From: a bacterium
Lineage (GTDB): Bacteria > Electryoneota > RPQS01
Reading direction: 5' to 3'
DNA length: 34,363 nucleotides
Assembly: GCA_018812265.1 (NCBI GenBank)
Contig: JAHJDG010000182.1
Coordinates: 1 to 34,363 of the forward strand
The position numbers were made by a program, and so were the translations under genes. Every line of letters begins with the position of its first letter. Position 1 is the first letter of the stretch. This document shows positions 9,808-34,138 of the stretch, piece by piece. The notes beneath the pieces are model-generated. The model worked only from the letters and a program-made list of their open reading frames with translations. It was not told where the DNA came from and made no database searches.

Positions 9808-9852
9808 GACAGAAATGCTGGAAACCGAGAAAAAGTGGACAGAAGGTGGCAC

Positions 9853-11469: not shown

Positions 11470-11524
11470 GTAAATTGTTGAAAATGTGTTCCCTCTGCGG
11501 CTATGAAAGGAAAGTGAGTCCACC

Positions 11525-17755: not shown

Positions 17756-17810
17756 GATGCACTCCTTAGAACGATAAGCCGTCGGCCCGCAAAGGACCGC
17801 CCCAGAAAAT

Positions 17811-20531
17811 TCATTTGAGAAGAAGCATGCGGGAAGTGAACGTCGCTTCCCCCGCCTGCATGCGCACGAAATAGACTCCGCTGGAAAGACCGCGTCCGTC
17901 AAAGACCGCGGAATGCGTTCCCGCGGTCAGGACTCCGTTCATGACCGTGGCGACCCGCCGGCCGAGAACGTCGAATGCGACAAGCTCAACGTGAGTGGAC
18001 ACCGCCACGTCAAACACAATCGTGGTGGTGGGATTGAACGGATTCGGATAGTTCCCCCGCAGCGCGGTCGTTCGCGGCAGGACCGCGCTGGGCGTCGGCG
18101 TCGCATCCAATGTCCCCATCCAGACCAGCATGGAAGAAACGACGTCCGCCTGATGAGTGGTCTGTCCCAATCCGCAAGCGGCCTCCAGAGCGAAAGCCAG
18201 ATAAACGACCTTGTAGCTCCCCGAGTACAGAATCGCGCCCGTTCCCCCGCCGCTATAAGAGAACAACGGTTCACCGCCGTTCACGGGAACGATTTGCGAT
18301 GGACTGGAGCTGTTGTTCGCGCAATCGCCGCCTTGCAGGAGCAACGACATTCCCTGCGATACGGGACTGCCCGGCACTCCGGAGAGTTGGCGGTTGCCGT
18401 CGCCGGTCTGGCTCTGTGCGTGAAGATAGTCGGAATAGAACGAAGTGGCCGCCAGGTCTTCATCCACGTTTTGGCCGATGACCATCAGGTTTCCGCCCCC
18501 GTTCAGATACACGCTCAGAACCGCCTGATCGTCGGCCGTCAACGTCTCCCAATTCTGATCTCCGCAGATCCAAATCACCGTCGAATACTGCGACAGTTCG
18601 CTTGAGGAAACCGCGCCTTCGGTCAACGTCGTGCGCTCGTCCGCCGTTACTCCGGCTTGAGTGACGCTGGTCGCGTAGTACGACTCGTATTGCATTCCGC
18701 CGTCGTCATCCACGATCAGAACCTCGCCGCGTCCGACGCGGACTTCCAGCGTTCGCGTGGCGCGGTAGCCGTTCGGCGAACTGAACGTCACCGACAGCGG
18801 CGCCCAGAAGGCGGTGTCGAGTTCGGAAGCGGCCGAAATGATGACGGGATTGCCGGAGTTTGACACGGTTTGCCCGGCCACTACGTCGCCCAGGAACACC
18901 GTGGAATTGGCAAGCGAAACGAACGGCGCCTCGCTGGAAATCGTCATCGAAAGATCATCGGCATTCGCCCAACCGGGATCGTTGGTGCAGGTGAGTACAA
19001 GATTCCCGCTCTCGCCCGATTCCAGACGTCCGTCGCCATCGCCGCCGATTTGGTCGGAAAGGTCAAAGCTCGCAATTCTCATCTGTGGATAAAAGGAAGC
19101 GACGGCCGCCGCTGCGTCCACCCGTCCGTGCCCCAGATGGGAAGGGGGTACGCCGGAATTGTTGCCCGTAATATCGTGTGCCGTATCGAAAATGAGGTCG
19201 CGAAGTTGAACGTTCGTCATTTCCGGTGCGAGCGACCAGACCAGCGCCGCCACTCCCGCGGCATTGGGGCTGGCCATAGACGTGCCGCTCATCGTGCCGT
19301 ACGTGTTGTTGACGGTGCTCATGACGCCGGGCGATGCCCCGGGAGCGCAGAGTTCGGTCCACGTCCCGCGATTGGACCAATGGGCCAAGCGATCATTGTT
19401 GTCGGTGGCGTTGACGGCGATTACGCTCGCGTAGGCGGCCGGATAATGAAGGTCGGTGACGCCGTCGTTGCCCGAGGCGGCGAACAGCATCGCGCCTTCC
19501 GCCCATGCAGTATTCATTACTTCATTCGCATGCGACGAGAAACCCGGTCCGCCATAAGACATATTAATCACACGGGCGCCGCCCACAACGGCATACAGAA
19601 TGGCCGGCAAACTGGCGCTCTCCGGAATTCCTCCGTTCCCCTGATTGTCGAGATAGCCGGCCCGAATTCCCATCAGCCGGCCGACCCAGCTCATTCCCGC
19701 GATGCCAATACCGTTGTCTCCCCGCGCCGCCATGATCCCGCCCACGTGCGTTCCGTGCGAGTGCTGGCCGAACACGTTGTTGTCCATCTGGCTGTCGCAA
19801 TCTTCACCCGGAGCGCAATTGCCGATGTTGCGGATAAAATCCCAGCCGAGGAAATCGTCGGTATATCCGTTCCCGTCGTCGTCAACTCCATTCAGGTCGT
19901 CGTAGTCTCCGGGATAGGTCGCGTCGGTCCAGGCCACACCGTCTCCATCCAGGTCTTCTCCGGGATTGACCCAAAGATTGGGAGTCAAGTCGGGATGATT
20001 CCAGTCCACGCCGGTGTCAATGCCGACACAGATGATCTCCGAAGATCCGACCGAGACGTCCCACACTGCCGGAGCTCCGACAATGCGCTTGTCCCACTGT
20101 TGACCCCACAGCGCATCATTGGGGACGCGGCTGATCCGCGCAATCAGGTCGGGCTCGACGAGCACCACGTTGGCGTCGCCGGCCAAACGATCCAGGACGT
20201 CAAGCACGGGATATTCGGAGCGAAACGTCAGCACGTACGTATGATACAGATCAGGGGCGACTTTGAGCCGGCCAAGAATCCCGTCGGGAACCAGCCGCTG
20301 GGCGGATGTGCATTCAAACTCGCTAAACAGCGCATTGAGCGTCGGTATATTCGTCACCAATGCCGGTTCAGCATCGGTCATTCCGGTTTCAAACCGAACA
20401 TCCTCATCAAAGCTAACAATCAATCGGCCCGGAATATACTGACACGAACTCCATTGATCGGACAAACCACAAGAAGCCTGTGAAGCGGTCAGCAGTAAAA
20501 CTGCGAGTGTGGCAACGACACGAGTAGACAT
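17811..20531 (-). CDS. Secreted subtilase (S8 peptidase) with T9SS sorting domain, copy 2
   Basis: The 906-residue product has a signal peptide (about 1-19, ending TASQA) and a ribosome-binding site CAGGAG before its ATG. The order of parts copies that of the downstream gene: propeptide (YIPGRLIVSFDED), Asp172 in GIDTGVDW, an Asp-rich probable calcium insertion (DDLNGVDDDGNG, NCAPGEDCD), His259 in SHGTHVGG, Asn355 in AASGND, Ser418 in SGTSMASPNAAG, a VDDDGGMQY-type region (about 620-780) and the sorting domain (NYPNPFNPTTTIVFD ... MLLLK). Its full catalytic triad indicates an active secreted endopeptidase. It is the first gene of the pair, with its own promoter at 20589-20617. The two genes arose by tandem duplication. 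Confidence 0.93.
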   Translation of the reverse strand: MSTRVVATLAVLLLTASQASCGLSDQWSSCQYIPGRLIVSFDEDVRFETGMTDAEPALVTNIPTLNALFSEFECTSAQRLVPDGILGRLKVAPDLYHTYVLTFRSEYPVLDVLDRLAGDANVVLVEPDLIARISRVPNDALWGQQWDKRIVGAPAVWDVSVGSSEIICVGIDTGVDWNHPDLTPNLWVNPGEDLDGDGVAWTDATYPGDYDDLNGVDDDGNGYTDDFLGWDFIRNIGNCAPGEDCDSQMDNNVFGQHSHGTHVGGIMAARGDNGIGIAGMSWVGRLMGIRAGYLDNQGNGGIPESASLPAILYAVVGGARVINMSYGGPGFSSHANEVMNTAWAEGAMLFAASGNDGVTDLHYPAAYASVIAVNATDNNDRLAHWSNRGTWTELCAPGASPGVMSTVNNTYGTMSGTSMASPNAAGVAALVWSLAPEMTNVQLRDLIFDTAHDITGNNSGVPPSHLGHGRVDAAAAVASFYPQMRIASFDLSDQIGGDGDGRLESGESGNLVLTCTNDPGWANADDLSMTISSEAPFVSLANSTVFLGDVVAGQTVSNSGNPVIISAASELDTAFWAPLSVTFSSPNGYRATRTLEVRVGRGEVLIVDDDGGMQYESYYATSVTQAGVTADERTTLTEGAVSSSELSQYSTVIWICGDQNWETLTADDQAVLSVYLNGGGNLMVIGQNVDEDLAATSFYSDYLHAQSQTGDGNRQLSGVPGSPVSQGMSLLLQGGDCANNSSSPSQIVPVNGGEPLFSYSGGGTGAILYSGSYKVVYLAFALEAACGLGQTTHQADVVSSMLVWMGTLDATPTPSAVLPRTTALRGNYPNPFNPTTTIVFDVAVSTHVELVAFDVLGRRVATVMNGVLTAGTHSAVFDGRGLSSGVYFVRMQAGEATFTSRMLLLK

Positions 20532-20783: not shown

Positions 20784-22013
20784 CTACTTGGTCGCCACAC
20801 GGGCCGGGATCACGTGCGGCGTTACAAAAACCATAATCTCCGTCTTGTCAAGCGTTTTGGCCTGATAGCTGAATAGCCGGCCGAAAAGAGGTATGGCGTG
20901 GAGGAGCGGCACGCGCCGTTCCACCAGACCATCCTTCGATCGGATCACGCCTCCGATCACAACCGTTTCGCCATCATGAACCAGAAGCGTGGTGCTGACC
21001 TGTGAGGTCAGGATGATGATACCACCCGAAACGGTGGCTTCGCCTGATAGGTCGGAAACCTCGGGATTCAGGCTCATCAAGACGTCCCCATCCGGATTGA
21101 TATGCGGCGTCACCCGGAGTTTCACGGCAACGTCGAACAGTTCCGTGACCAGATTGCCCGCTTCGTCCAGAACATTGATCGGGATTTTCTTCCCCGACAA
21201 GATCTCGGCAGACTCATTGTCATTGATAAGAACCGAGGGTTGAGAAAGAATCTCGGCACGCCGGCTCTCCTCCAGCGCCGAGATCCTGGCCTCGATGTCC
21301 ACGCCGTTCTCGAGACGACCAAAAGAGAAGGTCCCGTGCGGCTCGTTGATGCCCAGATCCACGCTGCCTTGCGCCCGAGTGTTGGCGAGCGGATTTTCGA
21401 GATTTCCCAGTGACCAATTCACGCCGATTTCACGGGCCGTGGCGAAATCCACCTCGACGAATTTGGCTTCGATAAGGACCTGCGCGGCCGGCCGGTCAAG
21501 CGAAGCCACGATCTCGTCCATCGAGCTGATCACCAGCGGAATGTCGCTGACGATCAGGGCATTGGCTCGGACGTCCGCCTGAGTGCGACCGCGTTCGCTG
21601 AGTAGCTTGCTGACCACCAATTGAAGCTTCTCAGCCCGAGCATACTTGATCTGATAGACCTTGGTCGCCAGGTTCTCGAGCTTGCGGGCCTGCTCATAAT
21701 CCTTATGGGTTGATACACGAATAATCCCCTGATTCTCGATGGCCACGAAGTCATTCATCTTGAGGATATTCTCCAGCGCTTCGCGCCAGGCCACATCGTG
21801 CAGAAGCACCGTCACCGGGCCTTTCACTTCGGAGCCGGCCACGATGTTCATGCCCGAGAATTCGGAAATGCTCCGCAGCACGGCCCGGATATCGGCTTCC
21901 TCCACGTTCATGGAAATCCTGCCTGCGGTGCCTCGGTAGGGAGCGGTCTGAGCCCCGGCACCGACCGCCACGCTCAGGCAAATCAGGAGGAGAATGATGG
22001 TCTTGAGTTTCAT
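20784..22013 (-). CDS. pilQ: Type IV pilus secretin PilQ (short form)
   Basis: PilQ forms the outer-membrane pore through which the pilus passes. The ATG at 22013 (AAAGGTG 7 nt upstream) is preferred over a GTG at 22022, giving 409 residues. A signal peptide ends near GAGAQ. An STN/N0-like domain (about 30-90: ADIRAVLRSISEFSGMNIV, AWREALENIL) and one N1-type domain (about 105-180, VYQIKYARAEKLQ, RANALIVSD) precede the secretin barrel (about 190-409), which ends VPLLHAIPLFGRLF and EIMVFVTPHVI. Typical PilQ has N-terminal AMIN domains and over 600 residues; these are absent, so the periplasmic part is minimal. It is the last gene of the operon, with pilP 44-54 bp upstream. Confidence 0.93.
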   Translation of the reverse strand: MKLKTIILLLICLSVAVGAGAQTAPYRGTAGRISMNVEEADIRAVLRSISEFSGMNIVAGSEVKGPVTVLLHDVAWREALENILKMNDFVAIENQGIIRVSTHKDYEQARKLENLATKVYQIKYARAEKLQLVVSKLLSERGRTQADVRANALIVSDIPLVISSMDEIVASLDRPAAQVLIEAKFVEVDFATAREIGVNWSLGNLENPLANTRAQGSVDLGINEPHGTFSFGRLENGVDIEARISALEESRRAEILSQPSVLINDNESAEILSGKKIPINVLDEAGNLVTELFDVAVKLRVTPHINPDGDVLMSLNPEVSDLSGEATVSGGIIILTSQVSTTLLVHDGETVVIGGVIRSKDGLVERRVPLLHAIPLFGRLFSYQAKTLDKTEIMVFVTPHVIPARVATK

Positions 22014-22066
22014 CGCCTGCACCTTTCCCCGGTTGGGAATGATTTCAACTGCCGCCGTTGCCGTCG

Positions 22067-22651
22067 CTATCCGTTGATCTTCAGCGTGATCTGGTCGTAG
22101 TCGCCGAAGTCCCAGACTTCCAGAGTGACCATCGAGTTGGTCACCGTCAGCACGCGGCCCTGATAGATCGGATCGCCTTCCCGCAGGAAGAACGTCTGGC
22201 CATTCTTGTCCTTTACCATGGCCAGATACTCACTTTCCGCCCACACGACACCGCTGAGCACCGCATTCTCGTGACGCAACAGATCGGTCTCGATTTCACC
22301 CTCGCGCTGCTCGTCACGAATCAAGGCGCGGAACGGATCGCGCTTCCCCGTCGGATCGTAGCGGATGGGTTCTTCGCGACGGAACACCGAGCTCTCGAGG
22401 TTGATGCGTCGCGTGCCGCCCCCGAACGAAGTGATCATCTCCTTCGGCAACACACCGAGAGTATCAAGCCCCTCCATTCTCGTGGAAATCTCCACCGGCT
22501 CGGCGGGAGATTCGTCGGCGCTCGTGATCGCGGCTTCCGCGTCCGTATCCGATGCGCCGACGGGAGCGGTGGATTCCGGCTCGTTCGCGCGCCCCGACGG
22601 GGCTCCTAAGCCGATAAGCAGCACCACGGTCAAGAAGAGAACGGCTTTCAT
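22067..22651 (-). CDS. pilP: Type IV pilus assembly protein PilP
   Basis: PilP links the inner-membrane PilN/PilO complex to the secretin PilQ. The 194-residue protein has an N-terminal hydrophobic segment (about 4-22) without a lipobox Cys, unlike many PilP lipoproteins. A low-complexity acidic linker (about 25-60) is followed by YDPTGKRDPFRALI (about 97-110), the conserved PilP hallmark, and a small C-terminal beta domain (LSGVVW, AMVKDKNGQTFFLREGDPIYQGRV). The start (GGGAGGACGCC upstream) overlaps the pilO stop by 4 bp, so translation is coupled. Confidence 0.88.
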   Translation of the reverse strand: MKAVLFLTVVLLIGLGAPSGRANEPESTAPVGASDTDAEAAITSADESPAEPVEISTRMEGLDTLGVLPKEMITSFGGGTRRINLESSVFRREEPIRYDPTGKRDPFRALIRDEQREGEIETDLLRHENAVLSGVVWAESEYLAMVKDKNGQTFFLREGDPIYQGRVLTVTNSMVTLEVWDFGDYDQITLKING

Positions 22652-23298
22652 GTGCGGCGTCCTCCCGGTTTCGCGGGCGCGGGCCGGCCGGGTGCGGGAC
22701 GCTCGTCCTTTTCCGACTCGATCTTGACCGGCGCTCCCAGTTCTTTGAAGATGTAAATGGACGCCACAAATTCGGCATCCACCGTTTCCGAGCTTCGTTT
22801 GCGGCGAGATTTATACTCACGGAGTTTGAGATCATTGACGTTCACGATTCGATCCAGCGCGGCCACGTCGGACAAGAACGCCCCCAGATCATGATACGTA
22901 GAGAGCGTGCGAATCTGGATGGGATTCTCCCAGTAGTAGGGCTTTTCGACCGGATCCAACGGCCGGAACAGCGTGAAAGTTACGCCCCGTTTCTGACCGG
23001 CCAGTGTAATCGTTTTCAGCAGGCCTTCCATTTCCCGTTGCGTCGGCAAGAGCTCGTGCGCGATACTCCAACTCTGCATGAGTCGTTCGTAGTCCTCCTG
23101 CATCGTCTGGTAGTTCGCGGCGATCCGCTTCCCGCGGGCCAACAGGTCGCTCTCGGTGGCGATTTCGCTGGCAAGCCGTCGAGCTTTCTCCTGCCGCGGG
23201 ATGTACGCGAAATTGACGAATGCATAGACCGTTCCAAAGGCCAGCGTGAGGATGATGATCCACTTCTGCGTGGCCTGGCTTCTCAGATTGATCTGCAT
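22648..23298 (-). CDS. pilO: Type IV pilus assembly protein PilO
   Basis: PilO pairs with PilN in the inner-membrane alignment complex. The 216-residue protein has a short cytoplasmic N-terminus, one membrane helix (about 13-31, WIIILTLAFGTVYAFVNFA), a coiled-coil stretch (about 35-85), then the PilO ferredoxin-like domain (LLPTQREMEGLLKTITLAGQKRGV, NPIQIRTLSTYHDLGAFLSDVAAL). The C-terminus is a Pro/Arg/Lys-rich tail. GAGGGATCATC precedes the ATG. It lies 12 bp after the lipoprotein gene and overlaps pilP. Confidence 0.9.
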   Translation of the reverse strand: MQINLRSQATQKWIIILTLAFGTVYAFVNFAYIPRQEKARRLASEIATESDLLARGKRIAANYQTMQEDYERLMQSWSIAHELLPTQREMEGLLKTITLAGQKRGVTFTLFRPLDPVEKPYYWENPIQIRTLSTYHDLGAFLSDVAALDRIVNVNDLKLREYKSRRKRSSETVDAEFVASIYIFKELGAPVKIESEKDERPAPGRPAPAKPGGRRT

Positions 23299-23770: not shown

Positions 23771-25495
23771 TTATTTGCCGGTTTGTTTCTTCAGATCTTC
23801 TTCCGCGGCCCGCCGTTCCCGAATGGCTTGTGCGCCGCGTTTCAAGAGATCCACGTTCTCGGGCGGCTTCTGCTCCTGAATTCCCAGATCGCCCATCGCA
23901 ATCTGCAGGGTGAAGCGGGTCACGTTCGCGTGGCCGATTTCCGTCTGCTCCGACACCAGGAGATCCACGCCGGTCACCGATCCGCTGCGCAGCAAATTGG
24001 ACATGAACTCGGAGACTTTCAGGTTCGAGCTGGTTACGCCCATCACTTTGGCTCCCGGTCCGCGGGGGGTGGCGCTCTCCTGAACGTCCGTAATCCACGT
24101 CAATTCAGGAAGGGCATTGTTGATGAGCTGCAGAAGTCTGATTCGCGCGAAACGGTTCCGGTCCAATCGCGATATCACGTCCATCCGCGCGGCGATATCG
24201 GCTCGTTTGCGGCTGAGACTCTCCACCAGCTCGATCTTGTCCTGATACAGACTCGCTTCTTTGCGAATCCCCTCGAGTCGTTTTCCCAGCGCGTCGAGCG
24301 CGCCTTCCTGAGAGAGATATACCATCACCATTCCGAACAGCAGAATGGAGAAGCCCATGATGGGCAGGACGGTGCCCAGTCCCGCGTATTTGACTTTGCG
24401 GTGTTCGGGCCGATCTTGCGCCAGCAGCAGATTGAAGCCGGGATGGCTGTCGTCGAGAAGCCTCAATGCCAGCCCCACCGCCGCCGCGAAGTCCGGGGCC
24501 GAGGCCGCCGCTACCGCCGGATCCACCGTCTTCGGATTGAGTTCAAACCGCTGGAACGGATCGCAAACGATGACCTCGATTCCGAACCGTTCGCGGAGAG
24601 CCGCTTCCAACATCGGCAAGTGTGCGCCGCCGCCGCACAGCATGATCCGCGAGAGAGGATTCTCGGCGCCCAGTCCGAAATACTCGGGGAAACTCCGCTC
24701 GATCTGCTCGGCAATCTTCTCGCTCACCCTGAAAGCCACCCGGTTCAATACCTCCGTTTCATCGAGACTGCGTTCGGCGGCCGCCAAGAGTGCCGCCGCC
24801 CGCTCGAACGGAATCCCCATTTCCCGGATCAGCTCTTCCACGTAGATCTTGCCGCCGACGTTGAGGTTGCGGTTCGTATCGTACACGCCGCCGGCGAAGA
24901 GGGTGACGTCGGTCGTTTGGAATCCAAGCTGCAGTACGGCGACCGTGCCCTGTTCCTCGAGATATCCGGCCTCCGTCAGCGCAGCCTGCAACGCAAACGG
25001 TTCGGCTTCGAGGAGTACCGGATGCCCGCCCGCCCATCGAAGGTGATCCACCGCGTCGCCAACCACTTCGTTCTTGGCGGCCACCAGCAGCACGCCCATT
25101 CGTCCGGTGTCGGGGTCCTGCGGAAGACGCGCATAGTCAAGGGACAGCTCCTTGATATCGTACGGAAGATTCGTTCGGGCTTCATAGGCGATGGTAGCGC
25201 TGAGCTCTTCCTCGCTCATCTCGTCGGTGGCTACGCGCTTAATCATTACTCGGCGGCCGCCGACGGAAATCGCGATCTCGCGGCCCTTGACCTGATTCTC
25301 TTTCAGCAACTCGCCAATGCGGCTGCAGACGGCGTCCGTGTCCATGACGACGCCTTCCACGATCGCATCATGGGGCAGCTCTTTGGACGCGATACGTTCC
25401 ACGCTCACCGAACCGCGCTTGGCTCGCAATACGGCGAGTTGAATGCTCCGACTGCCGATGTCGAGTCCGATTCCCAACTTGTTCCGTTTCGCCAT
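23771..25495 (-). CDS. PilM-PilN fusion protein of the type IV pilus alignment complex
   Basis: The 574-residue single chain joins two proteins that are usually separate. Residues 1-350 are PilM, a cytoplasmic actin-like (FtsA-type) ATPase fold: GIGLDIGSRSIQLAVL, VGGRRVMIKRV, IAYEARTNLPYDI, VLQLGFQTTDVTLF, and LCGGGAHLPML. Residues 354-358 (FNLLL) correspond to the INLLP motif at the PilN N-terminus that docks in the PilM groove. A membrane helix follows (about 372-394), then a coiled coil (about 395-445) and the PilN periplasmic domain (LLQLINNALPELTWITDV, VMGVTSSNLKVSEFMSNLLRSG). The end is a charged coil. The frame is continuous with no sign of a sequencing fusion. It begins 12 bp after the kinase-like gene. 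Confidence 0.92.
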   Translation of the reverse strand: MAKRNKLGIGLDIGSRSIQLAVLRAKRGSVSVERIASKELPHDAIVEGVVMDTDAVCSRIGELLKENQVKGREIAISVGGRRVMIKRVATDEMSEEELSATIAYEARTNLPYDIKELSLDYARLPQDPDTGRMGVLLVAAKNEVVGDAVDHLRWAGGHPVLLEAEPFALQAALTEAGYLEEQGTVAVLQLGFQTTDVTLFAGGVYDTNRNLNVGGKIYVEELIREMGIPFERAAALLAAAERSLDETEVLNRVAFRVSEKIAEQIERSFPEYFGLGAENPLSRIMLCGGGAHLPMLEAALRERFGIEVIVCDPFQRFELNPKTVDPAVAAASAPDFAAAVGLALRLLDDSHPGFNLLLAQDRPEHRKVKYAGLGTVLPIMGFSILLFGMVMVYLSQEGALDALGKRLEGIRKEASLYQDKIELVESLSRKRADIAARMDVISRLDRNRFARIRLLQLINNALPELTWITDVQESATPRGPGAKVMGVTSSNLKVSEFMSNLLRSGSVTGVDLLVSEQTEIGHANVTRFTLQIAMGDLGIQEQKPPENVDLLKRGAQAIRERRAAEEDLKKQTGK

Positions 25496-25507: not shown

Positions 25508-26683
25508 TCAGACGTGAGTGGTTTCACGGGATAGGTTCGACTGCGTCGGCGAGGGAGCGGCTCCGATGCTGAACGTTTCCACCGGGCGTCGCGGCAACGT
25601 AACGCGAAACTCGCTGCCTTTGCCGACCCGGCTTTGCACCGAAATCCGTCCTCCCATCGCTTCCACCAGCAGTCGAACGATGGTCAGCCCCATCCCGGCG
25701 CCCTGCGCTCCGGATGCCGCTGAACCCGCTCCGCGATAGTACTTATCAAAGATATTGGAAATTTCGCCTTCCGGGATTCCTACGCCGTTGTCGCGCACGA
25801 AGATGTCCACATAGGTCTCGTGGTCTTCGACCGTCAACCCGATCTTCCCGTCGTGCAACGTGTGGTGCATTCCGTTTTGAATCAGGTTCATCAGCACGCG
25901 ACAGAGAGCTTCTTTCGGCAGATACATCGGCTGCACGCTCTTCGGAACCGAAAATTCCAGTTCCACGTTCCGCCGCGTCGCCTCGTCGCTGCAATGGGCC
26001 ACGGCATTGGCCACCGCCTCCGCCACGTTCACGACGTCGAGTTCGGTTTCCAGAGCGGAATTCTCAAGTCGGCGAACATCAAGGATATTCTCCACGATCC
26101 GCGCCAGATGATCCACTTCTTCCTCGATAATCTGCGTATAACGCGCGTGTTGCGCTTCCGACAGATCACCGTATCGTCGCAGAGTGTATACGTACCCTTT
26201 GATGAGTCCGAGCGACGTGCGCAGAGCGAAATCCACCGACGTCCGGCGGCTCTCCGATGCGTCCCAGAGTTTCTGCTCGAGAACAATCTCCTGGCTTACG
26301 TCCCGCCCGATCCCGGCGATCGCCCATACCTCTCCATTGTGAATGAGCGGACTCTCCAGGAGTTCGAACGTATACTGCCGATTCTTGCCGATCGTATAGG
26401 TGCGCGTCGAGCGCTCGGGGATTCGCTGTCGTCGGATTTCGTCGAGGACTCGGCGGGTGATGGCCACTTGTTCGCCTTCGAGCCTGTCGAACACCGTCGA
26501 ACCGATCATTTTCTCGCGCGGCAACTGGAAGACCACGCACATCCGCGGATTGACCTCCAGGTACTCGCCCGTGGGCGTGGCCACGTACACGATGTCGAGG
26601 CCCGTTTCCACCACGACTTGCCACGGGTGTTCGCCCAACAAACCGTGCGGACGGTCTTGAAGCCGCTGCAGCGCCTCGGTCAC
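25508..26683 (-). CDS. PAS-domain histidine-kinase-like protein lacking the phospho-acceptor His
   Basis: The 391-residue soluble protein starts at a GTG after AGAAGGAG and overlaps the response-regulator stop by 4 bp. A PAS domain spans about 20-135 (DIVYVATPTGEYLEVNPRM, then GIGRDVSQEI). A HisKA-like helical hairpin follows, but the H-box reads SVDFALRTSL at 149-158, so the usual HELRTP His is Phe152 and Pro is Ser. The DNA there (GTG GAT TTC GCT CTG CGC) leaves no doubt. The HATPase domain keeps an N-box Asn270 (NLIQNGMHHT), G1 DNGVGIP (298-304), and G2 GAGMGLTIV. It probably binds ATP but cannot autophosphorylate in the standard way. It may be a phosphatase or conformational partner of the adjacent regulator. 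Confidence 0.88.
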   Translation of the reverse strand: MTEALQRLQDRPHGLLGEHPWQVVVETGLDIVYVATPTGEYLEVNPRMCVVFQLPREKMIGSTVFDRLEGEQVAITRRVLDEIRRQRIPERSTRTYTIGKNRQYTFELLESPLIHNGEVWAIAGIGRDVSQEIVLEQKLWDASESRRTSVDFALRTSLGLIKGYVYTLRRYGDLSEAQHARYTQIIEEEVDHLARIVENILDVRRLENSALETELDVVNVAEAVANAVAHCSDEATRRNVELEFSVPKSVQPMYLPKEALCRVLMNLIQNGMHHTLHDGKIGLTVEDHETYVDIFVRDNGVGIPEGEISNIFDKYYRGAGSAASGAQGAGMGLTIVRLLVEAMGGRISVQSRVGKGSEFRVTLPRRPVETFSIGAAPSPTQSNLSRETTHV

Positions 26684-27099
26684 GACCGCACTCCTTCTGT
26701 GCTTTGCCGCGAAAGCAAACGGATTCGCGAGACCAGTTCCTTCATCGAAAACGGTTTCATGAGATAATTCACGTCAGTTCCGTCGAAATTCACCGAGCCT
26801 TTTGCCGGCTCCCCCGTGGCGGACACGAAAAGAAGCGGAATTTGGGCCGTTCGCCGATCGGATTTCAGTCCGGCCGCCATCGTGAAACCATCCATGTCGG
26901 GCATGGCCACGTCGGTAACGATCACGTCCGGGTTCATCGCCAGCGCCATTTCATGCACTTTGCGGGGATCATGCACGCGCTCCGTAAGAAAGCCTTCCAC
27001 TTCCAAGGCGACAGCCAGCATTTCCGTGTATCGGGGATCATCATCCACGATCAGTACCTGCGTCAGCCTAGTCTGCCGATCATCCATTGCGCTTCCCAT
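26680..27099 (-). CDS. Single-domain response regulator (receiver only)
   Basis: The 139-residue protein is a CheY-like receiver with no output domain. All active-site residues are present: acidic pocket Asp19-Asp21 in LIVDDDPRY, phospho-acceptor Asp63 in VTDVAMPDMDG, Ser93 in FVSATGEP, and Lys115 in YLMKPFS. The start at 27099 has a distant GGGAGAG; an internal ATG at 27087 (MDDRQ) is also possible. Its stop overlaps the GTG of the kinase-like gene, so the two are translationally coupled, and it should be the direct partner of that protein. Without an output domain it must work through protein contact, plausibly with the pilus or the adjacent AAA+ protein. Confidence 0.9.
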   Translation of the reverse strand: MGSAMDDRQTRLTQVLIVDDDPRYTEMLAVALEVEGFLTERVHDPRKVHEMALAMNPDVIVTDVAMPDMDGFTMAAGLKSDRRTAQIPLLFVSATGEPAKGSVNFDGTDVNYLMKPFSMKELVSRIRLLSRQSTEGVRS

Positions 27100-27166: not shown

Positions 27167-28552
27167 TCAGAGCCGTTTCAATCCCGGTACGTCCTGCGAC
27201 GAATCCGTCTGAGCTTCACCGGACGGCCTGCCGATTCCCGTGTCAAGAAGCATCCGAATCTTCTCTGCGCTTCCGGCCGTCAAGCTGACTCCGCAGTAGT
27301 CGGCAATGTCCCGGACGACCGAGATCGTCACGTCTTGACCCTCGATCACGTTCATCGCCACCAATTGCTGCGCAACGTTGATCAAGTCTCTCAGATCGTC
27401 GCCGCTGCTGGCGGCCAAGAAATCGAGGACGTCGTCGGAAACGCTGACCCGACCGATCCGGCTGCGGACGATCTCGCGCTTGCCCGGTTCCGAGTAGCGG
27501 CCGATGTGCGCAATCACTCCCGATTCAATAATCATGCGCAGATCCTGACTCCATCTTGGCTCGGTCACCAAGTTGTTGTCGGCCGCCAGTACCAGCTGCT
27601 TCTGACTCCTCTCCATGTGCCGGTAGGTGTCCGCCAGTTCACGCTGTGCCCACGGGTGGGTCAAGAGCGCCTCCGCATCATCCACCATCAACAGATCAAG
27701 CTCACGATAGAGATAGCGGAAGAAATTCAGTTTGTTGTCGCGGATACATTCGAAAAGATCGTCCACAAACCCTTGTCCGGTCGTGAGAACGAGGCGCTTC
27801 AAGGGCGATTGAGTGGACACGAAGTTGGAGATCGCGTGAAGCAGATGCGTCTTGCCCGTCCCCGGCGCGCCCCACAGATGGCAGGGATTGTATCCGCTGT
27901 CCGCCTCAAAGCGGGCGATGGCGCGCGCCACTCCGACGGCGAACTGGTTTGCCGAATCGGCTACGAACGTGTCAAAGATCGCGCCCCGACGGGGTGACAT
28001 ACTCTTCCCGACCGGCAACATGCTGCCTTCCTCCATGAGGTCGCGCGGTCGGCTTCTGCGGCCGGAATCATCGGCACATCGGATCACGGCGTCTGAGTCC
28101 GGTTCGTGATGAGGTTCACCGTAGTGGAGATAGACGGCGTGTTCGATGGCGTCATAGCGAGCGGAAAAAGGTTGCACGTCGAAGTCCGTCACCGACCGAA
28201 GCGCGGCCAGCGCCTCAGGGCCGGTCGGCTCCGCCATGGCCACCGCCAGCGTGTTGCCGCTTCTTCGAAACGGAATCAGATGGTGCTTGTGTGCCACCGC
28301 CCCCGGCACATGGCGAACCGCTTCGGGATCAATCTCCACGTCCTCCAGCTTCAGGAATCGAATCTGAAACGCATCGTCATAGATGGCGCGGATATCCTCG
28401 GCCGACAGCCATCCCAACTCAATAAACGCCTGATCCAGAGCGATCCCTTTCTGTTTCGTCAGAAGGATCGCTTCCTTCAGTTGCTCGGCCGTGATGATCT
28501 GCCGGTGGATCAGCACGTCCGCCAGACTATGCTCCGCTGCCGTCGGCGTCAT
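27167..28552 (-). CDS. Fusion of GspE/MshE N-terminal domain with a DnaA-type AAA+ ATPase
   Basis: The 461-residue protein combines two units. Residues about 9-145 match the N-terminal domain of pilus/secretion ATPases (MshEN/T2SSE-N): LADVLIHRQIITAEQLKEAIL, LDQAFIELGWLSAEDI and HHLIPFRRSGNTLAVAMAEP. The RLG residues of c-di-GMP-binding MshEN motifs are not conserved. A charged linker leads to a DnaA-like AAA+ module from about 192: FDTFVADSANQFAVGVARAIA, Walker A GAPGTGKT (228-235), Walker B LLMVDDAEAL (Asp291/292), a sensor-1 region LVLAADNN, and sensor 2 DDLRDLINVAQQL. The DnaA HTH DNA-binding domain is missing, as in Hda. Its ATG overlaps the preceding stop (ATGA). It probably assembles with the pilus machinery or its regulators; this is inferred only. 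Confidence 0.85.
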   Translation of the reverse strand: MTPTAAEHSLADVLIHRQIITAEQLKEAILLTKQKGIALDQAFIELGWLSAEDIRAIYDDAFQIRFLKLEDVEIDPEAVRHVPGAVAHKHHLIPFRRSGNTLAVAMAEPTGPEALAALRSVTDFDVQPFSARYDAIEHAVYLHYGEPHHEPDSDAVIRCADDSGRRSRPRDLMEEGSMLPVGKSMSPRRGAIFDTFVADSANQFAVGVARAIARFEADSGYNPCHLWGAPGTGKTHLLHAISNFVSTQSPLKRLVLTTGQGFVDDLFECIRDNKLNFFRYLYRELDLLMVDDAEALLTHPWAQRELADTYRHMERSQKQLVLAADNNLVTEPRWSQDLRMIIESGVIAHIGRYSEPGKREIVRSRIGRVSVSDDVLDFLAASSGDDLRDLINVAQQLVAMNVIEGQDVTISVVRDIADYCGVSLTAGSAEKIRMLLDTGIGRPSGEAQTDSSQDVPGLKRL

Positions 28553-29268
28553 TCGTCACCCTGCGAATCGCGTACGTCTCCGAGCAACGTCATCTGCCGG
28601 CCGGCCTCGGCTCCCGCCCAGAACAACGCTTCGGGCGCAGTCTGCGACTGGGCCGAGAGAACCGTGGCAAACTGACCCGTCTTGACGATCAGCAAGGTAT
28701 GCTCGCCCTGCCGGACGTACAATGTCTCCGGCTGATCGCCGGCGTTTCCCAAGAACGTTTTCAACTGCCGATTCAGCCACTCGCGGGTTTCCTGATCCCG
28801 TTCCGTGGTCATCTCCACAAGCCCTCCGGCACTCACCGTCAAACTCTGTATTTCCGGGACTCGCTGGCGAAGATGACGCAAGACTTCTTCCAGCTCCGGT
28901 CCGGCCGGCGTTTCAACTTCCGCGGCGCGAGGCATCTCCTTGGAATGCGGCGTGGAGCGAATACGAGCCAACAATTCCAATGAACTCTCACGGATCGAGC
29001 GCGCGGGGGGAAGCGAGCCGGGCTCCAGCAGGTACGTTCCTTCCGTCCAATCGGCCAGCTCTTCCAGCGCCGGAGGACCCTCAATGCGGACGGTTCCCTC
29101 GATGGACAGTGCGTGGGCGATCTGTCCGTTGACCAGCCAGGCAACGCCGATCCGTCGGCCACTCCGAAGCCGCAGCGCCCCACTCCAGTTTTCACCGAGA
29201 AGCGACTCGATCAAGGGAATCACTCGATCCCGTTCAATCTGACCCAATCTTGCCCGATGTGTGCTCAT
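28549..29268 (-). CDS. DUF4388 (PATAN-like) and Roadblock/LC7-like protein
   Basis: The 239-residue cytosolic protein has two parts. The N-terminal half (about 10-100) fits the DUF4388 pattern: a WSGALRLRSG strand pair, LVNGQIAHAL, PALEELADWTEGTYLLEPG. DUF4388 domains occur in bacterial signalling and gliding-motility proteins. The C-terminal half (about 125-230) looks like a Roadblock/LC7 fold (VPEIQSLTVSAGGLVEMT, TLYVRQGEHTLLIVKTGQFATVLSAQSQ), as in MglB, the GTPase-activating partner of MglA that sets pilus polarity in Myxococcus. It overlaps the AAA+ gene by 4 bp and follows pilT by 23 bp. No MglA-like GTPase lies in this window. Assignment to these folds is by pattern and moderately sure. 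Confidence 0.65.
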   Translation of the reverse strand: MSTHRARLGQIERDRVIPLIESLLGENWSGALRLRSGRRIGVAWLVNGQIAHALSIEGTVRIEGPPALEELADWTEGTYLLEPGSLPPARSIRESSLELLARIRSTPHSKEMPRAAEVETPAGPELEEVLRHLRQRVPEIQSLTVSAGGLVEMTTERDQETREWLNRQLKTFLGNAGDQPETLYVRQGEHTLLIVKTGQFATVLSAQSQTAPEALFWAGAEAGRQMTLLGDVRDSQGDE

Positions 29269-29291: not shown

Positions 29292-30416
29292 TTACCCGGA
29301 CACATTCGTCGTAACCGCCGTCTCCGCAGCCGTCAGACGGGAACCCGACGTATTGATGCCTCGAATGGCCATCTCGACGTCATGCGGGTTGCTGGCGCTT
29401 TCCATGGCCATTTCGTGGCTGATGTATTGCTGGCGAAGCAGTATCAGAATGGATTGATCGAACGTTTGCATTCCGTGCGCGCCTCGATCATCCTCCAGTA
29501 ATCCTTGCAGCATGTGCATTTTATCCGGATCCGCCAGACACTCCCGAATCGCCGCCGTATTCACCAGAACTTCCACGATCGGAACTCGACCGTTCCGGTC
29601 GGCTCGCGGCACCAACCGTTGACTGACCAGCGCCTGTATGGTTCCCGACAGGATAGACCGCACCTGCCCCTGTTCATTCAAGGGGAAGAATGAGATGATT
29701 CGGTTGATCGCCTCCACGGCGTTCAACGTATGCAACGTCGTGAGCACCAGATGCCCGGTCTCGGCGGCCTGCAACGCGACCTTCATCGTTTCGTGATCGC
29801 GAATCTCACCCACCATAATGACGTCCGGATCTTCACGAAGCGCGTGCGTCAGCGCGGAGTGAAAGCTCCGCGTATCTATGGCGACCTCACGCTGCGCAAT
29901 GAGGGACTTCTTGTTGCTGAACAGATACTCGATCGGATCTTCGATGGTCAGGATGTTCGCGCTGCGACGACTGTTGATATACTCGATAATGGCGGCCAGC
30001 GTGGTGGACTTGCCCGAACCGGTCGCTCCGGTCAAGAGAACGATTCCCCGCCTTAGGGTGGCGATCCGCTCCATCACCGGCGGCAGCATTAGTTCCTCAA
30101 AGGTCGGAATCAGGGTCTTGATCGAGCGAATGGCCAGACCCGGAGTTCCCTTCTGAAAGTAGACGTTGACACGAGTCCGGCCATGGCCGGGAACGCTCAC
30201 GGCAAGATCCAGTTCTTTCTCTTGATACAGAGTCTCGATCTGCGGCGGCGTCAGAATTTCCTTCAGAAACGCCTCCATTTCCGCTCCCGTAATCCGCTCC
30301 GAGCGCGTGGCATACAGCTCGCCGTCTATGCGGAGGACGGGCAACGATCCGACCCGCAGATGAAGATCCGACGCCTTCTTCACGAACAGAAGTTCCAATA
30401 AGCCGCGTACGTCCAT
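29292..30416 (-). CDS. pilT: Twitching-motility retraction ATPase PilT
   Basis: PilT is the hexameric ATPase that disassembles and retracts type IV pili. The 374-residue length is typical. Motifs: N-terminal SDLHLRVGSLPVLRIDGEL (16-34), Walker A GATGSGKST (130-138), Asp box LTIEDPIEY (157-164), Walker B DPDVIMVGEIRD (196-207, catalytic Glu204), and His box TGHLVLTTLHT (220-230). The C-terminal AIRNL motif of classical PilT is altered to AIRECL, so coupling of ATPase to retraction may differ. The extension ATPase PilB and platform PilC are not in the window. The gap to the upstream TPR gene is 68 bp and the ribosome-binding site is weak. Confidence 0.95.
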   Translation of the reverse strand: MDVRGLLELLFVKKASDLHLRVGSLPVLRIDGELYATRSERITGAEMEAFLKEILTPPQIETLYQEKELDLAVSVPGHGRTRVNVYFQKGTPGLAIRSIKTLIPTFEELMLPPVMERIATLRRGIVLLTGATGSGKSTTLAAIIEYINSRRSANILTIEDPIEYLFSNKKSLIAQREVAIDTRSFHSALTHALREDPDVIMVGEIRDHETMKVALQAAETGHLVLTTLHTLNAVEAINRIISFFPLNEQGQVRSILSGTIQALVSQRLVPRADRNGRVPIVEVLVNTAAIRECLADPDKMHMLQGLLEDDRGAHGMQTFDQSILILLRQQYISHEMAMESASNPHDVEMAIRGINTSGSRLTAAETAVTTNVSG

Positions 30417-30484: not shown

Positions 30485-31672
30485 TCAGGACGCCGTTTCG
30501 CCGCTCCCCAGCCGATCGCTCAATTCGGATATCCGTTCCTCGACGTCTCCATAGGAAGGATTCCGCTCGCGAACGGCCTCGAAATGGGACAGCGCTTCCC
30601 TCAAATTCCCCAGCAGCTCGTGTAAGTTGCCGATTTGGAAGCCGAGCGCAACCTGAGCATCGTCATCGTTAGATTGAGCCGCGCGCTCGCGCTCCAGTAG
30701 ATCGAGCGCCGCCGGCAGGTCGTCCATTTCATGCAGGCATTCGGCCAACGCCAGCGAAGCCCGGATCCGCATGGACGGATCTTTCCGCGCTTGCTCAAAC
30801 TCGGCGACGGCGGCATCCCACAGCTTCATTTCCTTGTATACGACTCCAAGATCATAATGATCTTTGCCCTCACCAGACGATAATTCCGGACCGACATCAA
30901 CCTGTATCCCGCCGGTCGGCGACGAAGTTCCGGGTACGGTTCCCATACCGGACGGCATCGTATTGCCGTACATATCGGCATCGGTCTCGGGATAACTATC
31001 CAATCCCTCCAGACCGATCAATCCATCGGAAGAACTTCGCGCTTTCGCAGGCTGCGCCGCCGTATCCTCCGCAAGCGCCGGCTGCTCTGGGAACATGGCG
31101 GTTTTGTGTGTATCATCCGGCGTGCGCTCTTCGATAGCCCGCGCGTACTCGTCGAGTCGCTGTTGCAGTTCGAAGTCTTCAATACCGCTCTCCGCCCAGA
31201 TCGTCTTGAGTTCGCCGACGAGGTGACGGTGACGCAGGGACACTCCGAGAATTCTCTTCACCAGCGCCCGGACGTCCTGTTCGGCGGGGTGTTTGGCAAG
31301 TTTCAGATAGCTGCGCAGCGATCCCAGGCAATCGGCGTGGTATTCAAGGCCCAGATAGGCGTCGGCCAGAAACAAATGCACGCCTTCTTCCTCGGGGACC
31401 AGCCGCAGTACCTTGCGCGCGACGCCGAGCGAGTTCTCGTACAGCCCCTCCGAGGCGAAGCCCTCGATCGCGCGTCGCCACGCTTCGGTCGCCTTCGGAC
31501 GGGTGCCGCTGTGCCAATAGAGATCCCCGAGGCGGTTCCACGTCGCAAAGTCGCGATCGGCCTCCTGCAGCCGTCGCTCGTAGTGGGAAATCGCCTTCCC
31601 CCACTTGCGTTTGCGAACCGCTTCGCGGATGCTCTGCTCGGATTCTTCTCGACCGCCGAACAATTTCTTCAT
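30485..31672 (-). CDS. Cytoplasmic tetratricopeptide-repeat protein of the pil operon
   Basis: The 395-residue protein has no signal peptide. TPR-like helical pairs occur at about 15-130 (WGKAISHYERRLQEADRDF, TWNRLGDLYWHSG, KATEAWRRAIEGF) and again at about 270-390 (HYDLGVVYKEMKLWDAAVAE, LALAECLHEMDDLPAALDLL, LHELLGNLREALSHFEAV). A middle linker (about 185-260) is rich in Ser, Thr, Pro and Gly. TPR proteins act as assembly scaffolds; here the partner may be pilus or FimV-like components, inferred from its place between the prepilin and pilT genes. GAGGAATCAGCG precedes the ATG, 11 bp after the PilX-like stop is reached on the other side. Confidence 0.8.
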   Translation of the reverse strand: MKKLFGGREESEQSIREAVRKRKWGKAISHYERRLQEADRDFATWNRLGDLYWHSGTRPKATEAWRRAIEGFASEGLYENSLGVARKVLRLVPEEEGVHLFLADAYLGLEYHADCLGSLRSYLKLAKHPAEQDVRALVKRILGVSLRHRHLVGELKTIWAESGIEDFELQQRLDEYARAIEERTPDDTHKTAMFPEQPALAEDTAAQPAKARSSSDGLIGLEGLDSYPETDADMYGNTMPSGMGTVPGTSSPTGGIQVDVGPELSSGEGKDHYDLGVVYKEMKLWDAAVAEFEQARKDPSMRIRASLALAECLHEMDDLPAALDLLERERAAQSNDDDAQVALGFQIGNLHELLGNLREALSHFEAVRERNPSYGDVEERISELSDRLGSGETAS

Positions 31673-31682
31673 CGCTGATTCC

Positions 31683-33335
31683 TCAACTGATTTGTCGCCA
31701 AGCGCCGCGCTGAACCGTGTGGACGCGGGGAGTACCCGGCGGCCAGTTGGCTGGCGTCAACAGGCCCGTGTCGAATGCCCAGTTCCGGTTGGGAGCCGTA
31801 TAGAATGACCCGTAGTTCCAGCTCGCCGTCGCCTGCCGGCTGTTCCAGAGGTCAATGATACTGCCGCGATACGTCACGGTCACGCCGCTCCAATTCTCGA
31901 GGAAACGGAACAGATTCTCCAGTCCGCCGCTGTACGTCGAACCGGAGTCCGTCGGCACATGCCCCGTCATTACGCAGGCATTGATGCTCATCGCCGTGGG
32001 AACGCGACTGCCCAAAGACCAATTCGATTTCGCGTCGTCCCAATTCGGAGAAAGCAGGGTGATGGCGTCGCACAGAAGAGCCGAACCCTTCTTGGAAACG
32101 GTGTTGTAGTTGCCCTTGACGTAAAGAGGCAGATTCGAGGCTATCGTCAAACCACCGTTCGGAAGCGTCTGCGCATTCATGATACGAATCGCAGGGTAGT
32201 CTCCGCTCGAATGAGTGATGTAGATGATGCCGTTGGGCGGAGCATATCCTCCCGAGATCATCGTCCCGATGTTGATATCCACCACGTCCGCCCAGCGGTC
32301 TTGGCGATCATCCCAGAATTTGTTGGCCTGATAGGTATAGACGCCGGGCTGGGTCAAGGGATTGCCCAAGCTGTCGGTGAGGACTCCGTCCACGTAGCGG
32401 ATCGTCGCTTTGTACCAGTATTTCGCCTCCCGTTCCAGTGGGCCGTCCCCGGCCACTCCCCGCTCGACAACGACGTGCTGATCCGCCGCCGGAGGAAGGG
32501 GCAGTCTTAGGTTTGAGAGTCCATGCGAACCGTCGCGGAACCTGCCGTTCCAGACCGACAGCGCTTCGGTAGCCCACGTCGCCTGCCGGTTATCCAGCCA
32601 GTAGCTGCCGCGCCAGACGTTCTGCCAGGCGCCGAATTGATCCTTGACGCGCACGTATCCGGGGGGATCCACGTGGGCGTTGTCCTTCCGGAAGTGCCAA
32701 TACCTGCCGACCGCCGTCACATAGGACTCGCACTGGATGCCGGTCTCGGCACCCATGTACAGATTGGCATTGGTATGAATCGGTCCGGCAAAGGTCATCG
32801 CGGGACCCGGATAGATTTCCAGGTCATTCTCGTAGAAGACGCCGAATTGAAAAAGCGGGATGAACTGATGCTGGATCTCCCGCACAATGGCGGCTTCCCG
32901 CCGGTCGCTGGATACCCGCGCTTGGACCGTGTACCGTTGTACGTAACCGCGCAAACCCGTATAATCTCCCGAAGAAATGATTTCTTCGGTCAACGGCCCG
33001 ACTTTCGTGACCTGAAACTGATTCACGTTGAAACCGGAATAACTCGGGGGCGTGAGTTGATCAATCTGACTTTGCGTAGGATCGAGCGTGTTGTTGAGCA
33101 AGTTCTTCAGCTCGCCGCATCCCCATTCTACGGCTCCCTCAGCCGCATAGAACGTCCGAGCGTTGTCCAGCTGAACGGCGGTCACCTGAGTCTGCCGCGT
33201 TGACCGGAGAGCCGACGTGGTTGCAATGAAAATGAGTCCGGTCATCAGAATCAGCGCCACCACCATCACCAGACCTCGCTGATGAGCCGAACGCCCTCTG
33301 CCCTGCCCTTTTGACCCCACGGGTATATTCCGCAT
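31683..33335 (-). CDS. Large PilX-like minor pilus protein
   Basis: The ATG at 33335 (GTGGAGAAAAGAC upstream) gives 550 residues; an earlier ATG at 33365 overlaps the upstream stop and cannot be excluded. A basic leader ends QRG, then LVMVVALILMTGLIFIATTSA forms the membrane helix, resembling PilX/GspK class proteins: it has the Gly of a prepilin site but no Glu at +5. The segment TRQTQVTAVQLDNARTFYAAEGAVEWG is typical of PilX N-termini. The remaining about 450 residues, including AGPIHTNANLYMGAETG, resemble large DUF4900-type pilus proteins. It may cap the pilus tip or bind surfaces. Its length is two to three times a classical PilX. Confidence 0.75.
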   Translation of the reverse strand: MRNIPVGSKGQGRGRSAHQRGLVMVVALILMTGLIFIATTSALRSTRQTQVTAVQLDNARTFYAAEGAVEWGCGELKNLLNNTLDPTQSQIDQLTPPSYSGFNVNQFQVTKVGPLTEEIISSGDYTGLRGYVQRYTVQARVSSDRREAAIVREIQHQFIPLFQFGVFYENDLEIYPGPAMTFAGPIHTNANLYMGAETGIQCESYVTAVGRYWHFRKDNAHVDPPGYVRVKDQFGAWQNVWRGSYWLDNRQATWATEALSVWNGRFRDGSHGLSNLRLPLPPAADQHVVVERGVAGDGPLEREAKYWYKATIRYVDGVLTDSLGNPLTQPGVYTYQANKFWDDRQDRWADVVDINIGTMISGGYAPPNGIIYITHSSGDYPAIRIMNAQTLPNGGLTIASNLPLYVKGNYNTVSKKGSALLCDAITLLSPNWDDAKSNWSLGSRVPTAMSINACVMTGHVPTDSGSTYSGGLENLFRFLENWSGVTVTYRGSIIDLWNSRQATASWNYGSFYTAPNRNWAFDTGLLTPANWPPGTPRVHTVQRGAWRQIS

Positions 33336-33361
33336 GTCTTTTCTCCACAGCAAATTACACA

Positions 33362-34138
33362 TCATGCGCCCAGACTCAAGTTGCGGCCGCGCACCAGAAA
33401 CCGATGTACGGTCCGGTGATAGCCGTCATACCAGTACGTCCCGTCCGGCAGATACAGAAATTCGGGATGGGCGTTTTCTTGACGATCCGAACGCGTTACT
33501 ACCATGATCTCGACCGCCGTGACCCGGCTCCGCTCCCCGGTAGTCAGCGTGTATCCGGACCCATAGGGGTAGCCAGACGCCGGAATCGAGTTCCCGTCGC
33601 GATCCCAATAAAGGAACATCATATGATCCACGTGGGTAGCCACCGTTTTCATTACCGGAGGCAGCCAGCGCAGCGAATCCCGTGACCACTCCCACACCGT
33701 CTGTTCAACCGTGTTATGTCCGGCGTTGCGCCGATACCGAATGGTCTCGGTCCGGCCGTCGTTGTCGTAATCGCCCGTACACACCAGATCGTAGGTGTTG
33801 GCGAACTCGAAGTCGCTGCGGATCGAGTCACTCCAGCTCTCGTTCGGAACGTCCCGGTTAATGTCGTTCGCGTCTCCGTTGACGTCCTGCGGCGCGAGCA
33901 AGCCAACCAGCTTGAATTCACGAGCCAGTCGCTGAACCACCATGCGCGACTCCTGGTTGGCCGCTCCGCGCGCTTCGTCCCGCGCGGCGCCACGGGCCGC
34001 ACCGTAGTACAAAGCGAATAGGGACGTGAGCAGCGTAATCGCCAGCGTCATGCTGATCAGCATTTCCAAGAGCGTCACCCCGGCGCACCGCGGTCGCGCC
34101 CGAGGCAACGTCTTTCGATTCGAAAATCTACGTCTCAT
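33362..34138 (-). CDS. PilW-like type IV prepilin/minor pilin
   Basis: The 258-residue protein has a basic leader followed by CAGVTLLEMLISMTLAITLL (about 18-37), the prepilin site G-V with the conserved Glu at +5 (the usual residue after Gly is Phe, here Val). This is typical of minor pilins processed by PilD. The C-terminal domain includes MVVQRLAREFKLVGL and Asp/Asn-rich stretches (DVNGDANDINRD, DYDNDGRTE) that may bind calcium. The start follows AGGGGAGACGAAG. It lies 30 bp downstream of the partial pseudopilin gene and its stop overlaps the PilX-like frame. Confidence 0.85.
   Translation of the reverse strand: MRRRFSNRKTLPRARPRCAGVTLLEMLISMTLAITLLTSLFALYYGAARGAARDEARGAANQESRMVVQRLAREFKLVGLLAPQDVNGDANDINRDVPNESWSDSIRSDFEFANTYDLVCTGDYDNDGRTETIRYRRNAGHNTVEQTVWEWSRDSLRWLPPVMKTVATHVDHMMFLYWDRDGNSIPASGYPYGSGYTLTTGERSRVTAVEIMVVTRSDRQENAHPEFLYLPDGTYWYDGYHRTVHRFLVRGRNLSLGA

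Follow-up and report, generated by a model that had tools for sequence, protein, structure and literature searches.

What does a DnaA-type AAA+ module do inside a type IV pilus (T4P) operon? This module is familiar from proteins that start, time or load replication. The question is raised by a 461-residue protein encoded at positions 27167 to 28552 (minus strand, ATG start) of a contig of 34,363 nucleotides, the whole of which was analysed and is called the window here. The protein combines the Pfam domains MshEN and Bac_DnaA and has homologues elsewhere; we refer to it as MshEN-DnaA. All operon features given below lie on the minus strand.

Domain architecture of MshEN-DnaA

A sequence-only reading of this DNA had proposed that a GspE/MshE N-terminal domain is joined to a DnaA-type AAA+ core with no DNA-binding domain, and our searches bear this out. 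In Pfam, MshEN matched residues 62 to 148 with 62.4 bits (cut-off, 23.1) and Bac_DnaA matched residues 192 to 345 with 111.5 bits (cut-off, 23). The same scan of the 461-residue open reading frame (ORF) found no T2SSE motor domain (PF00437), no DnaA domain I and no Bac_DnaA_C (PF08299), the DnaA-box-binding helix-turn-helix (HTH) of domain IV. The protein is thus composed of a PilB-type MshEN (GSPII; ND0-ND1) domain at residues 8 to 148 (28109 to 28531), a mostly predicted-disordered linker at residues 149 to 187 (27992 to 28108), and a DnaA domain-III-type AAA+ module with its lid at residues 188 to 418 (27299 to 27991). Among NCBIfam models, the PilB model TIGR02538 covers residues 10 to 150, and the MshE motif region (residues 10 to 56) scored 35.6 bits against NF053729, slightly below the cut-off of 38. 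Residues 191 to 416 scored 145.6 bits as DnaA versus 80.1 bits as Hda, the latter below the TIGR03420 cut-off of 194.8. A PDB sequence search returned DnaA domain III at 3e-28 and PilB/PilF N termini at 6e-14.

An AlphaFold2 model built from a 15-row alignment (mean pLDDT, 81.7) shows two domains modelled with confidence and, between them, a disordered linker, with residues 149 to 178 below a pLDDT of 50. In Foldseek, the AAA+ part of the model matched DnaA domain III (2z4r, TM 0.90, rmsd 1.9; 8bv3, TM 0.93, rmsd 1.6), and the N-terminal part matched c-di-GMP-bound MshE (5htl, TM 0.72). By Pfam and fold match, residues 1 to 145 therefore stay in the MshEN/T2SSE_N family, and by fold and DnaA score the AAA+ part groups with DnaA/Hda, not with a known pilus ATPase. 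The reading's DnaA/Hda lineage can be narrowed to DnaA rather than Hda on the scores and on the absence of an Hda-type clamp-binding motif.

The motifs quoted in the earlier reading are all in the sequence: GAPGTGKT, VDDAEAL, a sensor 2 Arg, and SLA where RLG is expected. Walker A (GAPGTGKT; residues 228 to 235, 27848 to 27871) has a Lys that is invariant in all aligned homologues, and Walker B reads LLMVDD (residues 287 to 292, 27677 to 27694). The position of the DnaA arginine finger (R285 in Escherichia coli) is occupied by Ile341 (27530 to 27532). Two degenerate 24-residue c-di-GMP motifs lie within the MshEN domain, at residues 9 to 32 and 38 to 61.

Compared with known proteins, MshEN-DnaA shares with PilB, MshE and GspE an N-terminal MshEN (GSPII) domain about 140 residues long, a flexible linker, an ATPase and a T4P gene context; however, its ATPase is a DnaA-type AAA+ module, not T2SSE. 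It resembles DnaA domain III in its AAA+ fold with lid (TM 0.90 to 0.93), its box order and its ISM region but differs from DnaA in having neither domain IV nor domain I and, in the window lineage, no arginine finger. Like Hda, it is derived from DnaA, belongs to the AAA+ proteins and has no domain IV; unlike Hda, it lacks the clamp-binding motif, scores as DnaA, and has a pilus instead of a replication context. Fusions of MshEN to ATPase, glycosyltransferase and other domains were described in 2016, with a DnaA partner unmentioned in the main text of that paper (PMC5013675). Each domain, and MshEN fusion to other domains, is thus already known, and in the literature searched, mostly outside subscription papers, we found no description of the MshEN-DnaA combination or of its linkage to pili.

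The pilus operon and its four-gene cassette

The gene lies inside a T4P operon, as the earlier reading held, within a cassette that has pilT on one side and pilM-N on the other. In the window lineage, the cassette encodes a DUF4388 (PATAN-type) protein with a predicted roadblock/LC7 (MglB-like) domain (28549 to 29268; DUF4388, 29.8 bits), MshEN-DnaA, a stand-alone receiver (REC) protein (26680 to 27099; Pfam Response_reg, 71 bits) and a PAS-HisKA-HATPase histidine kinase recognised by Pfam (25508 to 26683). The reported overlap with its neighbours holds on one side only: the gene overlaps the upstream one by 4 nucleotides (ATGA, 28549 to 28552), but the downstream receiver gene is 67 nucleotides away. 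The flanking genes encode a PilT/PilU-family retraction ATPase (29292 to 30416; TIGR01420, 439 bits) and a PilM-PilN fusion, the proposed docking platform (23771 to 25495; PilM_2, 175 bits; PilN, 43 bits). Further out are PilO (22648 to 23298), a PilQ-type secretin (20784 to 22022) and a TPR protein (30485 to 31672) whose C-terminal repeats weakly match SgmX, an activator of T4P (NF052243, 64 bits, far below the cut-off). The upstream part of the operon, conserved in order, encodes an HpsA-like protein and an HpsC-like N-methyl pseudopilin (31683 to 34138). We saw no pilB in the window operon; the genome encodes two further MshEN proteins resembling PilB-type ATPases, and its own dnaA is a separate gene, at C90.

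The conserved neighbourhood with pilT and pilM that was anticipated is present in 11 genomes of the window's phylum. With small recognition gaps and some short contigs, the order there is HpsC-like, HpsA-like, TPR, PilT, DUF4388 protein, MshEN-DnaA, receiver, kinase, PilM-N, small protein, PilO, AMIN-like protein, PilQ and subtilases. In the window, two subtilases with Por_Secre_tail sorting domains directly follow the secretin gene (15020 to 20531), and such genes follow the pilus operon in most relatives. Beyond them lie two adjacent laminin-G/concanavalin-like proteins (9835 to 13072) with 65% identity across about 215 residues; a Por_Secre_tail is also present in the second.

Two genomes of a sister family depart from the full cassette. 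In G012, no DUF4388 gene was recognisable and the other three genes are present. In G011, the same pilus operon runs from pilT directly to pilM-N and all four cassette genes are missing. Because the operon is intact in this one genome without the cassette, the cassette is probably a regulatory module and MshEN-DnaA probably a regulator, not a core part of the machine. Of the two roles that the sequence-only reading had left side by side, regulator or assembly factor, the former is favoured, since G011 lacks the gene together with its three partners.

The DUF4388 partner contains the PATAN domain (DUF4388 in Pfam) and, in its AlphaFold2 model, a C-terminal roadblock domain, for which Foldseek matches included Myxococcus xanthus MglB (TM at most 0.67, E about 1e-3); a sequence-profile comparison with roadblock protein or PDB sequences gave no match, so that this assignment comes from the fold search. 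An Arf-family search of the window genome, an insensitive one, recognised no MglA-like GTPase; its sole match there lies in a 916-residue ORF, IF2-like by size, as are its matches overall (ORFs of 637 to 1048 residues). The operon resembles the MglA/MglB/SgmX and PATAN regulatory systems in grouping DUF4388 (PATAN), predicted roadblock and TPR partners; it differs in the AAA+ component, which is absent from the literature surveyed on those systems.

Distribution and ancestry of the family

Profile searches, covering 386 sampled genomes and then whole or sampled phyla, located full-length homologues in five phyla, 40 genomes in all. One more lies on a Hydrothermota metagenome-assembled contig (L052) that may or may not fall within the large fifth phylum. 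The fusion is therefore not due to chance, and a chimeric assembly or frameshift was rejected on the same count. In the window's phylum, 11 of 39 genomes are positive, all of them from two related families; one of these, the eleventh (G010), passes the first profile searches and falls below the threshold of a stricter one. Three small phyla have a homologue in 3/3, 3/3 and 3/3 genomes, and the large phylum in 20 of 100 sampled genomes, where a few matches, one of them in G467, hold a stop codon, mostly at the ORF end.

Gene order was also compared outside the window's phylum. In another phylum (3/3 genomes), MshEN-DnaA is directly upstream of pilB, followed by pilT, pilS, pilR and pilC. In the large phylum, it lies between an upstream TPR gene and a downstream pilM-N at 12/12 loci, and the same two genes flank it on the Hydrothermota contig. 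A further phylum carries arrays of MshEN and MshEN-DnaA genes, beside a prepilin peptidase gene and pilB in G188. Thus, linkage of MshEN-DnaA to pilus genes is conserved in four phyla. In the remaining phylum, no pilus genes were found in the neighbourhood viewed; the gene is accompanied there by genes for two DUF4388 proteins and by one each for a roadblock protein and a Ras-like GTPase, a further likeness to the MglA system.

Trees separated the fusion domains from those of other proteins. The MshEN domains of 36 fusion proteins split cleanly from 26 PilB proteins (support, 95/89), and the AAA+ modules of 23 fusion proteins fell on one side versus 54 DnaA rows (support, 85, unstarred). Other DnaA paralogues, tandem or TPR-linked, fall among the fusion AAA+ rows, and the roots are unsure. 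Both trees omit a degenerate 983-residue protein of G188; the MshEN tree also omits two MshEN-only rows, and the AAA+ tree the second AAA+ module of a 1999-residue protein. A recent local fusion of each host's own PilB and DnaA is disfavoured by these splits. One old origin of MshEN-DnaA is compatible with the sequence data, though not proven by them.

Several variants were encountered in these searches. The arrays of consecutive MshEN and MshEN-DnaA genes span L116:4309-15923 (G188) and L115:1940-11341 (G325) and include a 1993-residue protein that has, besides MshEN and its two DnaA AAA+ modules, a long middle part that is probably helical. A homologue in G004 (L038:9264-10982) bears an additional C-terminal CBM20 starch-binding-type domain. 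Tandem DnaA AAA+ proteins without an HTH domain are encoded at L077:8643-10598, L078:6924-9017 and L079:5392-7497, with DUF4388 proteins adjacent or near at two of the three loci and a large TPR protein at the third. Lastly, a 2132-residue protein (L082:7958-14356) consists of TPR repeats followed by a terminal DnaA AAA+ module.

Residue losses and the role of the AAA+ module

We aligned the homologues to E. coli DnaA positions. In the window lineage, the Walker A Lys is kept in 11/11 members and the first Walker B Asp in 9/11, with the sensor 1 Asp in 1/11, the arginine finger in 0/11 and the sensor 2 Arg in 3/11. The DnaA comparison set reads 55/55, 55/55, 54/55, 55/55 and 55/55, respectively; one of its rows, DnaA_L115, is a paralogue from an MshEN-DnaA array, not the replication DnaA. 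Hence, the sensor 2 Arg named in the earlier reading is real in the window protein but is shared by few of its relatives. In L042, a member of this lineage, both Walker B acids are gone, and the lid is truncated in L041, L042 and L044. The P-loop GxxGxGK[TS]H, including its Lys, is nonetheless kept in every aligned MshEN-DnaA row. Several homologues in other phyla keep the arginine finger and the sensors; where other homologues have lost the finger, the loss may have arisen independently or by descent. The c-di-GMP motif (two RLGxx..L..L..Q) follows a similar course: it is near-intact in most members of the pilB-linked phyla and broken in 11/11 members of the window lineage, with SLADVL..T in the window protein, so the degeneracy noted earlier extends to the whole lineage. 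A complete ancestral form that gave rise to a degenerate ATP-binding form in the window lineage would be the simplest reading of these alignments. The ATP dependence that had been suggested survives in part. With an invariant P-loop but an eroded finger, sensor 1 and sensor 2, proteins of this lineage more likely bind ATP than run through a DnaA-style ATPase cycle.

These residues bear on what the protein might do. A role as alternative pilus motor, or as active assembly ATPase in place of PilB, would fit a PilB-like MshEN domain in an operon without pilB. We regard it as highly improbable: the T2SSE ATPase domain is absent, the genome has its two other PilB-like MshEN proteins, pilB and MshEN-DnaA coexist where they are adjacent, the window lineage has lost the arginine finger and sensor 2, and G011 keeps the operon without the gene. 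An Hda-type regulator that links chromosome initiation to the state of the pilus, for instance through an interaction with DnaA, is very unlikely, despite the DnaA-derived AAA+ module and the separate dnaA gene. The arginine finger is lost, the Hda score of 80 bits is far under the model cut-off of 194.8, and the gene accompanies pilus genes in four phyla, not replication genes. Moreover, the N-terminal clamp-binding motif QL[SD]LPL is absent from 18 of 19 scanned members, the one match being a chance-like QLDLL in L042.

DnaA domain III binds single-stranded DNA (ssDNA) through its AAA+ core, and T4P machines can serve DNA uptake, so the module might instead handle incoming ssDNA at a competence machine; our model also matches 3r8f, a DnaA-ssDNA complex. 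We give this little chance, as the annotated neighbours include no recognised competence gene and the presumed ssDNA-contact residues of E. coli DnaA are replaced in the window lineage: the R245 position is Trp in 8/11 and Arg in 0/11 members, and the V211 position is Val in 0/11. The losses of finger and sensors, of Walker B in L042 and of part of the lid in three members would also be expected of a passive scaffold, a docking domain attached to a dead AAA+ fold with no nucleotide-dependent role. This is unlikely, since retention of the P-loop in all aligned rows is unexpected for a dead fold.

We therefore favour, as somewhat more probable than its negation, a role for MshEN-DnaA as an AAA+ switch that regulates the type IV pilus, binds ATP, docks at PilM and is under two-component control. 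The MshEN part would dock the protein at the PilM platform; in type II secretion crystal structures, the N-terminal domain of PilB homologues binds PilM homologues (PMC8389850). In Thermus thermophilus PilF, however, PilMN binding requires none of the three GSPII domains, although stimulation requires GSPIIC (PMC6325625), so the PilM anchor could be something other than MshEN. The DnaA-derived module could serve as the state element, which would bind ATP and change conformation or partner when ATP, the DUF4388-roadblock protein or the phosphorylated receiver engages it. The output may be that PilB/PilT action at the platform is licensed or blocked, under the control of the kinase-receiver pair of the same cassette. 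Comparable parts are described elsewhere: in Synechocystis, PilB1 is the proposed binding partner of a PATAN regulator (review, PMC7690835), and in M. xanthus, MglA and the TPR protein SgmX bring PilB to the pilus base, with PATAN proteins among the predicted SgmX partners (PMC11580455).

Homologues from other phyla whose c-di-GMP and AAA+ motifs are intact may be ATPases that respond to c-di-GMP and form DnaA-like oligomers; the window lineage, having lost both features, might now be an ATP-binding scaffold or switch. A broader view, which we hold tentatively and at rather less than even odds, is that an old DnaA-derived AAA+ family was recruited in several phyla to the control of surface motility, its complete forms undergoing DnaA-style, ATP-driven oligomerisation at PilM that is gated by c-di-GMP bound to MshEN, with DUF4388, roadblock and GTPase proteins as possible partners, and the window lineage a two-component ATP switch. 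MshEN-DnaA is a concrete candidate for what licenses the access of PilB and PilT to the pilus base. If our reading is true, the family would add a new class to the known T4P regulators and show the DnaA fold at work outside replication.
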